Positions 37,654-49,507 of a DNA stretch of 64,000 nucleotides are shown here, piece after piece. The notes beneath the pieces are model-generated. The model had not been told where the DNA came from, did no database searches, and worked only from the letters and a program-made list of their open reading frames with translations. The stretch's first letter is position 1; every line of letters begins with the position of its first letter. The position numbers and the translations under genes are program-made. This DNA comes from Rhodoferax sp. OV413. Its GTDB lineage: Bacteria > Pseudomonadota > Gammaproteobacteria > Burkholderiales > Burkholderiaceae_C. The stretch is taken from assembly GCF_900104385.1 (NCBI RefSeq), contig NZ_FNJA01000001.1:1152386-1216385 (forward strand). Reading direction: 5' to 3'.

Positions 37654-38700
37654 TTAGAAACGCGCGAAGTATTCCTGCAGCCGATCCTGGAAAAGCTGCT
37701 TCTGGCTGGCGTCGATAAAGCTGCCCTCAAAGCTGTTGTACGCCAGTTGGTAAGCATGATGGGCCGTCAGGCCGGTGGCGGCAAAGGTTTGGGTAAAGTT
37801 CTCGTTGATGTAGCCGCCAAAGTAAGCCGGGTCGTCCGAGTTGACGGTGGCCACCAGGCCGGCGTCGAGCAGCGCGCCCAGGTTGTGGTCGGCCAGATCG
37901 GGAAACACGCAAAGCTTCTGGTTCGACAGCGGGCAGACTGTCAACGGAATGCGGTCCTGCGCCAGGCGCTGCATCAGCAAGGCATCGTGGACGGACTGCA
38001 CGCCGTGGTCGATGCGCTCCACATGCAGCACGTCCAGCGCGCTCCAGATGTAGGCCGGTGGTCCCTCCTCGCCCGCGTGCGCCACCAGGCGCAAGCCCAG
38101 GCTGCGGCATTTGGCGAAGACCTTGGCGAACTTTTCCGGCGGGTGGCCAAGCTCGCTGGAATCCAGGCCGACACCGATGAATTTGTCGCGCAGCGGCAGC
38201 GCCTGCTCCAAGGTAGCAAACGCGTCTTCTTCACTCAAATGGCGCAGAAAGCACAAGATCAACACCGCACTCAGGCCCCACTGTTTTTGCGCATCGACGC
38301 AGGCGCGGTGCAGGCCGTTGATGACAGTGTCGATGGCCACACCGCGCGCGGTATGGGTTTGCGGGTCGAAGAAGATTTCTGTGTGCGCTACGTTATCTGT
38401 AGCAGCCCGCGCAAGATAGGCGTGCGCCATATCGTAGAAGTCTTGCTCGGTCAACAGCACGCTGGCGCCGGCGTAGTAGATGTCCAGAAAGCTCTGTAGA
38501 TTGCTGAACGCATAGGCGCTGCGCAGCTCTTCGACGCTGGCGTAGGGAATCGCCACGCGGTTGCGCTGGGCCAGCGCGAAGATCAGCTCGGGCTCGAGCG
38601 AGCCTTCGATGTGGATGTGCAGCTCGGCCTTGGGCATGCCGCGCAGCAGCTCAGGCAGGCGGTCGGCGGCGATAGCGGGTACGGTGAAGGGTGTGGTCAT
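37654..38700 (-). CDS. Adenosine deaminase family protein, adenine-deaminase type
   Basis: Zinc hydrolase of 348 residues converting an aminopurine to its oxo form with loss of ammonia. Metal and catalytic motifs: [40 protein letters not shown] and [13 protein letters not shown]. It resembles Pseudomonas aeruginosa PA0148, known as an adenine rather than adenosine deaminase (shared features: [56 protein letters not shown]). So adenine to hypoxanthine is the likely reaction, feeding xdhAB nearby. Its start codon shares one base with the stop of the Rieske gene (TGATG), indicating translational coupling. Many annotation pipelines would simply call it adenosine deaminase. Confidence 0.9.
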
Positions 38701-39683
38701 CAGCAGACTCCAAAAGTAATACCCAGGTGTTTCAGATAGCGCCGGTAAGTGGCAGAGGCCTTGTCCGCCGCGGTATGCAGCTCGGCCCGCGGGTCCAGCG
38801 GCAGGCGCTTGGGGGTTTGCGATTCCAGCACCGGCTGGTCCTGCGCGAAGATGGTCTGCTGGAAGGTCCGCAGCTTGTCGTCAGACGCCGGCCCATCGGG
38901 TCCAGCCAGTCTAAACCAGACCCGGCTGTGCTCCGGGCCGACCGGGCAGATGAACATGCCGATCGCTTCACGGTAGTCGACCAGCGCGACGCTGGACGCC
39001 TCGGGCACTTTGGTCAGCACGGCGGCGTACGGCGCCTCCACCGTGTAGCTGTATTCCACCTGCGCCGGCGCGGTGGCGTGCGCACTGGACTGCGGCTGCC
39101 AGGCCTTGCACTGCGTGGCAACAAAGCCATCGGGCGTGCTGTCGACCCGGTAGTCATCAATCGAACAGGCACCGCGGCTGCCCAGCCAGCCCTCGTGCAC
39201 AAAGGCGAAATGCGCCATGTCCAGAAAATTCTCTACCAGCCGTGGTGCGCTGGTCGCCACGTCGAACGGGCCACAATTGATCTTGCGCAAACGGCTGTCG
39301 GCCTCGGCGGTAAACGGCACCAGATCTTGCGCATCGGCACTACCCTGCAGCCGCACCCAGACCAGGCCATAGCGCTCGCAGGCCGCAAAGCTGCGCACCA
39401 CATGGCTCGCGGGCGGGCTGAAGTCTGGCAAGGCCGGCACATGCACGCACTGCCCCGAGGCCGCAAACTGCCAGCCGTGGTACGGGCACTCCAGCCGATC
39501 GCTACAGACCCGTCCCAGCGACAACCGCGCGCCGCGGTGCGGGCACTGGTCGACCCAGGCATGCGCCACGCCCGCCGAGTCGCGCCACAGCACCACCGGC
39601 TGCTCCAGCAAAGTGGCGGCCAGCGGCTGCTGCGCCAAATCAGCGCTCGCAGCCACCGGATGCCAAAGAGTTTTTTCCATCAT
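38700..39683 (-). CDS. Rieske non-haem iron oxygenase, alpha-subunit-like
   Basis: 327 residues from the ATG at 39683; a longer reading would run through the terminator stem at 39721-39743. Rieske [2Fe-2S] ligands are C47, H49, C66 and H69 ([14 protein letters not shown], then ECPYHGW). The catalytic domain has the mononuclear-iron motif [14 protein letters not shown] with D155, H158 and H163. The C-terminal segment [14 protein letters not shown] is shared with vanillate demethylase and NdmA-type N-demethylases. Cotranslated with an adenine-type deaminase and set in a purine transport/xanthine dehydrogenase locus, so a purine or N-methylpurine substrate is a reasonable inference. No dedicated reductase is encoded in the window. 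Confidence 0.88.
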
Positions 39684-47183: not shown

Positions 47184-49507
47184 ACGCCCCTGAAAAACTC
47201 AAGCTCGCCAGCAGCGCCGCGGGCCGCTCGGTACCGCACGAAAGTGCGCGCGCCCAGGTCAGCGGCAGCGCACATTACGTGGACGACCTGCCCGAGGTAC
47301 GCGGCACCTTGTACGCCGCGCCCATCCTGTCCACCGTGGCCCACGGCAAGCTGTTGGGTGTAGACAGCCACGCCGCGCTGGCCATGCCCGGCGTGCAAGC
47401 CGTAGTGCTGGCCAGCGACATTCCCGGCGACACGGTGCTGGCCGCGTTTTCCCACGACGAGCCGATCTTCGCCAGCGACACGGTGCAGCACATCGGCCAG
47501 GTGGTTGGCGTGGTGGTGGCTAGCACGGTGATGCAGGCCCGCGCCGCAGCCCGCGCTGTCAAGCTGGACATCGAAGCCCTGCCCGCCTTCCTGGATGTGC
47601 GCGCTGCCTATGCCGCGCAAAGCTATGTGCTGCCGCCGGTGTTCGTGCGCCGCGGCGATGCAGCCCAGGCCATCGCCGCAGCCCCGCACAGGCTGAGCGG
47701 CCAGCTGGAAGTCGGCGGGCAAGAGCATTTCTATCTGGAAGGCCAAGTGGCCTACGTGCTGCCGCAGGAGCAAGGCCAATGGCTGGTCCATTCCAGCACC
47801 CAGCACCCGGGCGAAGTGCAGCACTGGGTGTCGCACGCGCTGGCCATCAGCAATAACGCGGTGCGGGTCGAATGCCGGCGCATGGGCGGCGGCTTTGGCG
47901 GCAAGGAGACGCAGGCCGGGCATCTGGCCGTCTGGGCCGCCATTGCCGCCAACAAGCTGCGCCGCCCGATCAAGCTGCGGCTGGACCGCGATGACGACTT
48001 CACCATCACCGGCAAGCGCCACCCGTTCGCCTACGACTACACCGTGGGCTATGACGACGCGGGCCGCATCTGCGGCTTCAAGCTGCTGATGCTGGCCAAC
48101 TGCGGCTTCAGCGCCGACCTCAGCGGCCCGGTGGCCGACCGCGCGGTGTTCCACGCCGACAACGCCTACTTTCTGGCCGATGTGGACATCAGCTCGTACC
48201 GGCTGAAGACGCATACCCAGAGCCATACCGCCTTCCGCGGCTTCGGCGGGCCGCAGGGCGTGATCGTCATTGAAACCATACTCAGCGAGATCGCGCGCCA
48301 GCTCGGCCTGGACCCACTGGAGGTGCGCCGGCAGAACCTGTACGACGCGGCCGACACGCCGAATCCGCAGCGCAACACCACCCACTACCAGATGGCGGTG
48401 GAAGACAACATCCTGCATCCCATGCTCTCAAAAATAGAGCAGTCTGCACAATACCAATCACGGCGCAAGGCCATTTCGGCTTGGAACGCGGCCAACCCGG
48501 TGATCCAGCGCGGCATCAGCATCACGCCGGTGAAGTTCGGCATCTCCTTCACCGCCACCCTGTTCAACCAGGCCGGTGCGCTGGTGCATGTCTACACCGA
48601 CGGCAGCGTGCAGGTTAACCACGGCGGCACCGAGATGGGCCAGGGCCTGAACACCAAGGTGGCGCAGATCGTGGCCGATGAGCTGGGCGTGCCGTTCGAT
48701 AGCGTGCTGGCCACCGCCGCCGACACCAGCAAGGTGCCGAACGCCTCGGCCACCGCCGCCTCCAGCGGCACCGACCTGAACGGCCGCGCGGCCCAGTACG
48801 CGGCCCGCAACGTGCGCGACAACCTGGCCCAGTTTGCCGCCGGCCTGGACGGCTGCGGCGCCGGCGCTGTGCGTTTCAAGGACGGCCAGGTGATCACCCC
48901 CACAACCAGCCGGCCGTTTACCAGCGTGGTGCAGCAGGCCTACGCCAACCGCATCCAGCTGTGGAGCGACGGCTTCTACCGCACACCCAAGATCCACTAC
49001 GACAAGACCACGCTGACCGGTCGGCCGTTCTACTACTTTGCCTACGGCGCGGCCTGCAGCGAGGTCGCCATCGACACCCTGACCGGCGAGAGCCGCGTGC
49101 TGAAAATCGACATCCTGTACGACGCTGGCACCAGCATCAACCCGGCCATCGACATCGGCCAGGTGGAAGGCGGTTTCATCCAAGGCATGGGCTGGCTGAC
49201 CACCGAGCAACTGGTGTGGAACGCCAAGGGTGTGCTGTCCACCCACGCGCCCAGCACCTACAAGATCCCGGCCACCGGCGACATCCCCGCGCACTTCAAG
49301 GTGGAGCTCTGGAACCAGCCGAACCGCGAGGACAACGTGTTTGGCAGCAAGGCCGTGGGCGAGCCGCCGTTCATGCTGGCGATCAGCGTGTTCGAAGCGA
49401 TGAAGGAGGCGATTGCCGCCGCACGCGGCGACGGCGCGGTGGTGCAGCTGGCGGCGCCGGCAACGGCGGAAAACGTGCTGCGGGCGCTGGCGGTCAGCGC
49501 AACCTAG
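47180..49507 (+). CDS. xdhB: Xanthine dehydrogenase large (molybdopterin-binding) subunit
   Basis: 775 residues binding the molybdenum cofactor; oxidises hypoxanthine to xanthine and xanthine to urate. Motifs: CRRMGGGFGGKETQAGHLA, AFRGFGGPQGVIV, GGTEMGQGLNTKVAQIVADE and the catalytic glutamate in GEPPFMLAISVFEA. Coupled to xdhA. No xdhC (cofactor insertion/sulfuration factor) follows; instead the gene runs tail to tail into a diguanylate cyclase gene, overlapping by 4 bases. Its place beside an adenine-type deaminase and a purine importer completes an adenine to urate route. Confidence 0.95.
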   Translation: MNAPEKLKLASSAAGRSVPHESARAQVSGSAHYVDDLPEVRGTLYAAPILSTVAHGKLLGVDSHAALAMPGVQAVVLASDIPGDTVLAAFSHDEPIFASDTVQHIGQVVGVVVASTVMQARAAARAVKLDIEALPAFLDVRAAYAAQSYVLPPVFVRRGDAAQAIAAAPHRLSGQLEVGGQEHFYLEGQVAYVLPQEQGQWLVHSSTQHPGEVQHWVSHALAISNNAVRVECRRMGGGFGGKETQAGHLAVWAAIAANKLRRPIKLRLDRDDDFTITGKRHPFAYDYTVGYDDAGRICGFKLLMLANCGFSADLSGPVADRAVFHADNAYFLADVDISSYRLKTHTQSHTAFRGFGGPQGVIVIETILSEIARQLGLDPLEVRRQNLYDAADTPNPQRNTTHYQMAVEDNILHPMLSKIEQSAQYQSRRKAISAWNAANPVIQRGISITPVKFGISFTATLFNQAGALVHVYTDGSVQVNHGGTEMGQGLNTKVAQIVADELGVPFDSVLATAADTSKVPNASATAASSGTDLNGRAAQYAARNVRDNLAQFAAGLDGCGAGAVRFKDGQVITPTTSRPFTSVVQQAYANRIQLWSDGFYRTPKIHYDKTTLTGRPFYYFAYGAACSEVAIDTLTGESRVLKIDILYDAGTSINPAIDIGQVEGGFIQGMGWLTTEQLVWNAKGVLSTHAPSTYKIPATGDIPAHFKVELWNQPNREDNVFGSKAVGEPPFMLAISVFEAMKEAIAAARGDGAVVQLAAPATAENVLRALAVSAT

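Follow-up and report, generated by a model that had tools for sequence, protein, structure and literature searches.

A stretch of 64,000 nucleotides from Rhodoferax sp. OV413 (contig NZ_FNJA01000001.1, positions 1,152,386 to 1,216,385 of the forward strand; the whole stretch is called the window below) carries a gene for a Rieske oxygenase, here named RIE, in the midst of genes for purine uptake and catabolism, and the function of this oxygenase is the subject of the present analysis. The gene order on the minus strand is LysR regulator, ABC ATPase, two permeases, BMP-family lipoprotein, RIE and a gene of the adenine/adenosine deaminase family (ADE), and the xdhA and xdhB genes are found on the plus strand, divergent from the LysR gene (Table 1). 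The stop codon of RIE and the start codon of ADE have one base in common (TGATG, read directly in the sequence). The lipoprotein, the two permeases and the double ATPase make up a complete BMP-type importer, on which the NCBIfam models for B6 transporters score under their own cut-offs, and both subunits of XdhAB exceed curated cut-offs. This gene content had been listed in an original prediction made from the sequence alone, and is confirmed here. The longest open reading frame of RIE begins with a TTG at 39752, and homology favours the ATG at 39683 (MMEKTLWHP). The solved chains nearest to ADE are 3ou8/3pan/3pao/3pbm (424 bits; next best, 366), and the 3ou8/3pan chain is what we take to be PA0148, an adenine-preferring deaminase.

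Table 1. Features of the RIE locus, with positions numbered from the first letter of the window
Feature	Position	Strand	Evidence
ADE, adenine/adenosine deaminase family	37654..38700	-	PF00962 297 bits; NF006850 572 bits (cut-off 419)
RIE, Rieske oxygenase, 327 aa	38700..39683	-	PF00355 and PF19112, both over cut-off
Terminator-like hairpin, 3' of BMP and 5' of the RIE-ADE pair	39721..39743	-	hairpin search
BMP-family (PnrA-like) substrate-binding lipoprotein	39881..41047	-	PF02608
ABC permease (BPD_transp_2), start codon uncertain	41102..42082	-	PF02653
ABC permease (BPD_transp_2)	42034..43095	-	PF02653
ABC ATPase, two ATP-binding domains	43082..44626	-	PF00005 in two stretches
LysR-family regulator	44690..45622	-	
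xdhA, xanthine dehydrogenase small subunit	45723..47183	+	TIGR02963 586.5 bits (cut-off 467)
xdhB, xanthine dehydrogenase molybdopterin-binding subunit	47180..49507	+	TIGR02965 1139.1 bits (cut-off 849.5)

RIE is a Rieske non-haem iron oxygenase, as indicated by its Rieske motif, its 2-His-1-carboxylate site, the two Pfam domains and the match of its fold. The Rieske ligands C47-H49-C66-H69 and the iron ligands H158, H163 and D282 are invariant in all 38 aligned members (38/38). The AlphaFold2 model of the protein (predicted local distance difference test, pLDDT, 93.2; predicted template modelling score, pTM, 0.91) was matched in the PDB to SxtT/GxtA with template modelling scores of 0.84-0.90 relative to the query, to NdmA with 0.80-0.85 and to NdmB with 0.79, and a profile built from RIE members gave 251 bits with SxtT, 250 with SxtDIOX, 205 with NdmA, 189 with NdmB and 110 with dicamba monooxygenase; the solved chains listed include neither NdmC nor HpxD, both of which were taken from other sources. 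HpxD and an ndm cluster came from annotated plasmids, the NdmA and NdmB of that cluster sharing 91% and 92% identity with the solved proteins, and NdmC-like clusters, encoding catalytic proteins without a Rieske domain, were found by a phylum search.

Conservation of the locus was examined in 150 genomes drawn evenly from the window's family (RIE at E <=1e-60, ADE at 1e-90) and in a contig scan, from which the best 80 of 573 confirmed relatives were taken; these are the closest by selection, so that the family draw gives the fairer figure. The record titles of the scan relatives are mostly of Comamonadaceae, and many are metagenome-assembled contigs with cut ends. In the family draw, RIE was detected in 48 genomes, with one match in each, and ADE in 117; 46 genomes have both, 2 have RIE without ADE, 71 have ADE without RIE and 31 have neither (Fisher p 1.2e-4, phylogeny ignored). 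Synteny beyond this strain, which the original prediction had made its test, holds, since in 38 of the 48 RIE genomes ADE follows RIE immediately, in the same orientation and less than 400 bases away; in the others the gap is 0.7-1.8 kb (5/48), the two genes are on different contigs (3/48) or ADE is below threshold (2/48). A BMP gene was found immediately 5' of RIE in 23 of the 29 regions fetched from these 48 genomes, which are mostly their more distant members. Among the scan loci, counted with the window and having adequate flanks, ADE is directly downstream of RIE in 64/80 and farther away in 6, and BMP is directly upstream in 57/80, farther away in 13 and absent in 10. The RIE-ADE arrangement persists at about 50% RIE identity, and a comparison of RIE with its nearest relative, from locus L014, rendered nonsynonymous and synonymous divergences (dN and dS) of 0.14 and 0.58, as under purifying selection. 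Outside the family the arrangement is rare: at E 1e-50, RIE was found in 3 of 369 genomes drawn from the class, each a member of the window's family, and in 11 of 398 drawn from the phylum, 8 of that family and 3 with distant relatives.

In 20 loci taken from the 71 ADE-only genomes, a same-strand BMP gene lies 5' of ADE in 16, within 250 bases in 11 of them and at 0.8-3.0 kb in 5, with the other importer genes in 15/16; no BMP upstream of ADE was seen in 4/20, and RIE was found in none. These results indicate that RIE is an optional addition to an already existing importer-deaminase operon. When the open reading frames in 13 gaps between RIE and ADE, or between BMP and ADE in loci lacking RIE, were inspected by eye, no common or recognisable alternative enzyme was observed; one gap gene, in locus L053, encodes a Yip1 protein.

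The catalytic half of RIE is 44% identical over 228 amino acids to the NdmC-like protein of locus L115 and 34-38% identical to the NdmC of Pseudomonas and Klebsiella plasmids. RIE is 35% identical to NdmA and 35% to HpxD, both over about 320 amino acids, and 31% to NdmB, HpxD itself being only 23-30% identical to NdmC-like proteins. In catalytic-domain trees of 50 rows, or of 51 rows when a cyanobacterial relative from Leptolyngbya was added, RIE and the NdmC-like proteins share a branch with support of 97/93 and 98/94, respectively, in which RIE alone (98/98 and 99/97) and the NdmC-like proteins alone (100/98 and 100/99) are each held together; RIE is sister to the NdmC-like clade and lies outside it. 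A first catalytic tree had three distant Rieske proteins of the same genome as outgroup and was set aside, since one of these, with a very long branch, was placed among the NdmC-like proteins; the 50- and 51-row trees were made without them and without two repeat rows in which the same gene appeared twice. A tree of the Rieske domain (40 rows) grouped the split Rieske domains, that is, NdmD N-termini and stand-alone Rieske proteins (18 rows, including two repeat hits), with support of 99/94, and RIE adjoined them at 86/70; row L172_R10494, labelled as a split Rieske domain, is an NdmB-like protein and was left out of the count. Both halves of RIE thus appear to point to the same kinship, the Rieske half weakly.

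A residue signature accompanies this grouping. At position 239, an acidic residue is found in 16 of 17 RIE proteins, the other having Asn, and in 21/21 distinct NdmC-like genes (23 rows with two repeat hits), against 0/12 HpxD-like, NdmA, NdmB and other rows and 0/3 outgroup rows, one of which has a gap; the Leptolyngbya row has Met. Lys225 is found in 17/17 RIE and 20/21 distinct NdmC-like proteins, and its presence also in the proteins of L186, L113 and Leptolyngbya (L190) indicates that it marks a wider group; Q196 and Q275 of the signature are likewise present in these three together with K225. An equivalence between SxtT Asp239 and RIE Glu239 was considered and dropped, since two alignments disagree by two to three positions, and what is said of position 239 is therefore limited to a tree-wide signature. 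On the basis of the two half-trees and the acidic residue 239, RIE can be described as a one-piece protein that is sister to NdmC combined with its Rieske partner.

In Pseudomonas putida CBB5, the NdmCDE system, an N7-demethylase, converts 7-methylxanthine to xanthine, NdmC being without a Rieske cluster, NdmD having an extra one and NdmE resembling glutathione S-transferases (GST), according to the relevant sections of PMC4408171. RIE resembles this system in the probable sister position of its catalytic domain, in the common acid at 239, K225, Q196 and Q275, and in the grouping of its Rieske half with that of NdmD. Unlike NdmC, which relies on NdmD, RIE has an intact Rieske domain of its own, and its neighbour is an adenine-type deaminase instead of NdmD or NdmE. 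NdmA and NdmB, the caffeine N1- and N3-demethylases, are one-piece Rieske oxygenases with the same predicted fold as RIE, yet they belong to a more distant clade, with Asn/Gln at 275, His/Phe at 239 and Val/Ile at 225. The NdmA-type kinship put forward in the original prediction stands therefore as regards the Rieske group, and is to be amended in that the nearer relative is NdmC; in the tree with NdmA and NdmB that it had proposed, RIE falls beside the NdmC-like proteins and apart from NdmA/NdmB and HpxD, with mixed results in the topology tests described below. Its suggestion of a modified purine as the substrate of RIE is a sound guess, in keeping with a purine locus conserved by synteny and with a place in the methylxanthine-demethylase part of the Rieske superfamily.

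The neighbourhoods of NdmC-like relatives show how far the association with purine genes extends. An NdmC-like query (1e-45) matched in 17/398 genomes, the match being RIE itself in 3 of the 17. Of the other 14 loci (17-20 kb fetched), seven of which come from one family and hence are non-independent, a BMP-type importer gene is present in 11 and a gene resembling that of 8-oxoguanine deaminase in 6. One of the 14, L170, is from the window's family; there ADE is present and RIE absent, and split NdmC-like and Rieske genes occur with GST-like and S-formylglutathione-hydrolase-like genes. A single gene run of locus L114 (L114:9003-17195) encodes a full Rieske oxygenase of the HpxD-like kind together with a BMP-type importer, and also a Rieske protein that stands alone, an NdmC-like protein and a GST, the importer sitting between the HpxD-like oxygenase and the split NdmC-like set. 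On a plasmid of Leptolyngbya boryana (L190:2297-7948), genes for BMP, ATPase, two permeases and a Rieske oxygenase follow each other consecutively. These neighbourhoods indicate that an importer together with a Rieske oxygenase of the wider group is a recurrent partnership, which is not specific to the NdmC clade. A tandem pair of NdmC-like proteins, 56% identical, was observed beside one NdmD-like Rieske reductase in L115:9155-10902, and L173 and L182 likewise have two NdmC-like genes.

Taken as a whole, RIE may be a Rieske oxygenase that is complete in itself and belongs with the purine N-demethylases, as a one-piece sister to NdmC together with its split-off Rieske domain, and that N-demethylates the N7/N6 edge of a purine, a reading to which we would give an even chance. 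Its kinship to NdmC and the signature residues favour the N7 side, so that RIE most likely removes a methyl group at or near N7 and probably lets the cell use methylated purines. With NdmC as kin, 7-methylxanthine and 7-methylguanine are candidate substrates; N6, which adjoins N7, is a possible target that would suit the co-translated adenine-type deaminase, and makes N6-methyladenine a candidate as well. A purine base or nucleoside would be taken up by the BMP importer, RIE would receive electrons from a reductase encoded elsewhere and hydroxylate the N-methyl group, which would leave as formaldehyde, and the freed base would pass through ADE and guanine deaminase to XdhAB, urate and PuuD. 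The genome appears able to handle these products: it encodes PuuD (PF06181, E 1.8e-127) and guanine deaminase, and three of its proteins score over the cut-off for glutathione-dependent formaldehyde dehydrogenase. A role of RIE as replacement for urate oxidase was rejected because of PuuD; the uricase family PF01014 gave no match in 20/20 genomes searched, this one included.

As for the electron donor, PF00970 has 8 matches in the genome, several of them near other Rieske genes and none in the window. When the region of about 3.5 kb around RIE in the 80 scan loci was searched at 1e-8 with six tblastn queries (NdmD, NdmE and further reductase and GST relatives, including HpxE- and L120-type ones), no reductase and one distant GST (1/80) were detected. 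A GST gene precedes RIE in 3/80 scan loci (L084, L088 and L091), two of them at weaker scores; these GSTs are about 24-31% identical to the NdmE-like proteins of L115 and L114, and an NdmE-like GST was not counted as a partner of RIE. A ferredoxin-reductase-type gene (Pyr_redox_2 and Reductase_C) was observed directly before RIE in L120:8294-10499, and is an electron-donor candidate in this one relative.

Several observations weigh against N-demethylation by RIE. ADE was undetected downstream of RIE in 10 of the 80 scan loci. The same six queries matched only RIE itself in the window, and the formaldehyde genes are not local to the locus. The BMP importer, being found also beside the HpxD-like oxygenase of L114 and the Leptolyngbya protein outside the NdmC clade, offers no choice between rival readings. 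Related enzymes differ in chemistry: the cyanobacterial hydroxylases SxtT/GxtA, which are the best PDB matches of RIE by sequence and fold (29-32% identical in fold alignments), differ from the proposed activity in that they serve biosynthesis, by hydroxylating a tricyclic substrate at C-H positions (PMC7293229), and the trees, which cover RIE, NdmC-like, HpxD-like and NdmA/B rows, leave them out. In approximately unbiased (AU) tests, forcing RIE with HpxD gave p 0.025 without the Leptolyngbya row and 0.145 with it, and forcing it with NdmA/B gave 0.0875 and 0.038, respectively, so that alternative placements are disfavoured, though not firmly. Moreover, the relevant sections of PMC4408171 report no function for NdmC-like homologues from bacteria other than Pseudomonas, and in a study of coffee-borer bacteria (PMC8055839), Delftia lacustris had an 'ndmA' homologue (E 7e-48) and no N-demethylation metabolites, as far as its pertinent sections go, growth on caffeine being recorded there in 8/50 strains only. 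In Delftia loci, an NdmA query matches RIE at values between 1e-40 and 1e-46, which suggests that this homologue is probably RIE and that the family has probably been noticed before under that name; no functional study of it was found in the literature searched. The 'ndmAD' entries for Klebsiella oxytoca and Erwinia in Table 1 of PMC8055839 may correspond to the homologous hpxDE.

The main rival is that RIE is an HpxD-like, molybdenum-free purine ring hydroxylase acting on hypoxanthine, which as the product of ADE would be at hand as its substrate, or on xanthine, as a backup or complement to XdhAB. We regard this as unlikely, in spite of its being the strongest alternative. HpxD belongs to the same Rieske subfamily, and on a Klebsiella plasmid hpxD has a LysR gene, hpxO and further purine genes as neighbours, a context like that of RIE; the hpxDE genes of K. 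pneumoniae bring about the oxidation of hypoxanthine to xanthine and on to urate (PMC7373994, in the portion dealing with these genes). The assertion of the original prediction that the classical route has no room for a Rieske step was thus wrong as worded. The AU test with the Leptolyngbya row (p 0.145) does not firmly reject a grouping of RIE with HpxD. On the other hand, that with the 50-row set (p 0.025) disfavours it, and HpxD is in another clade: no branch of the best 50-row tree unites RIE with HpxD-like proteins, and in the 51-row tree RIE is with the NdmC-like ones (98/94). HpxD has Leu239, Ile225 and Asn275 where RIE has Glu, Lys and Gln, hpxE follows hpxD in Klebsiella whereas ADE follows RIE, no HpxE-like reductase gene was detected by tblastn in the window, and XdhAB is already encoded at the same locus.

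It is quite improbable, in our view, that RIE supplies ADE with adenine by stripping off a larger N6 side chain, for instance that of a cytokinin-type N6-alkyladenine. The overlap of the two genes and their conserved pairing would suit such a reaction, and oxidative N-dealkylation is among the Rieske oxygenase reactions covered in the consulted part of PMC12445004; the literature searched, judged by title and start of abstract, shows nothing relevant on Rieske enzymes in bacterial cytokinin degradation. That RIE is a mere hitch-hiker in a purine operon and acts on an unrelated aromatic compound is very improbable. Rieske proteins are common in this genome (16 Rieske-domain matches), and in a minority of loci RIE lies away from ADE and BMP, for example beside a MutS or a PNP-type phosphorylase gene, but the RIE-ADE adjacency is retained to about 50% identity and NdmC-like relatives of other families also adjoin BMP importers and purine genes.

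If N-demethylation is the activity of RIE, a wider role can tentatively be envisaged, which we consider rather doubtful: that RIE-ADE is a dedicated salvage system for methylated bases from RNA decay (N6-methyladenine or 7-methylguanine), by demethylation and then deamination and with its own BMP importer; that RIE is the surviving one-piece form of the ancestor of the split NdmC and Rieske protein (NdmD or stand-alone); and that a BMP importer with an NdmC-type oxygenase is a general bacterial methylpurine module beyond caffeine. The conserved one-piece sister, present in 48/150 family genomes, provides a comparator for the NdmC/Rieske split and a concrete target for the role of such chemistry in bacteria that do not eat caffeine, and, should RIE act on a methylated base derived from RNA or DNA, an oxidative route of methylpurine salvage would be defined by this locus.

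The remaining features concern the organisation of the locus. A riboswitch search of 34000-52000 (xanthine-sensing NMT1 or other, E up to 1) rendered nothing relevant, its sole match being a CRISPR repeat family that stayed below threshold. Within the window region by itself, terminator-like sites are not enriched (3 found versus a shuffle mean of 2.7). Across loci, a stricter hairpin was found 5' of RIE in 54/108 and, where RIE is lacking, 5' of ADE in 10/20. In RIE-bearing loci it precedes ADE in 3/96, BMP in 9/80, the first permease in 0/82 and the ATPase in 0/80, and in RIE-less loci BMP in 1/13, the permease in 0/15 and the ATPase in 1/15. It is thus present 3' of BMP in about half of the loci, regardless of the next gene, and rare elsewhere in the operon, which indicates that it mostly represents the end of the importer genes, after which RIE and ADE follow as a pair. 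Between ADE and guanine deaminase, L018, L020, L046 and L054 contain a radical-SAM-like gene, read as queE and under the Pfam cut-off, which in L018 is accompanied by a PTPS/queD-like gene.

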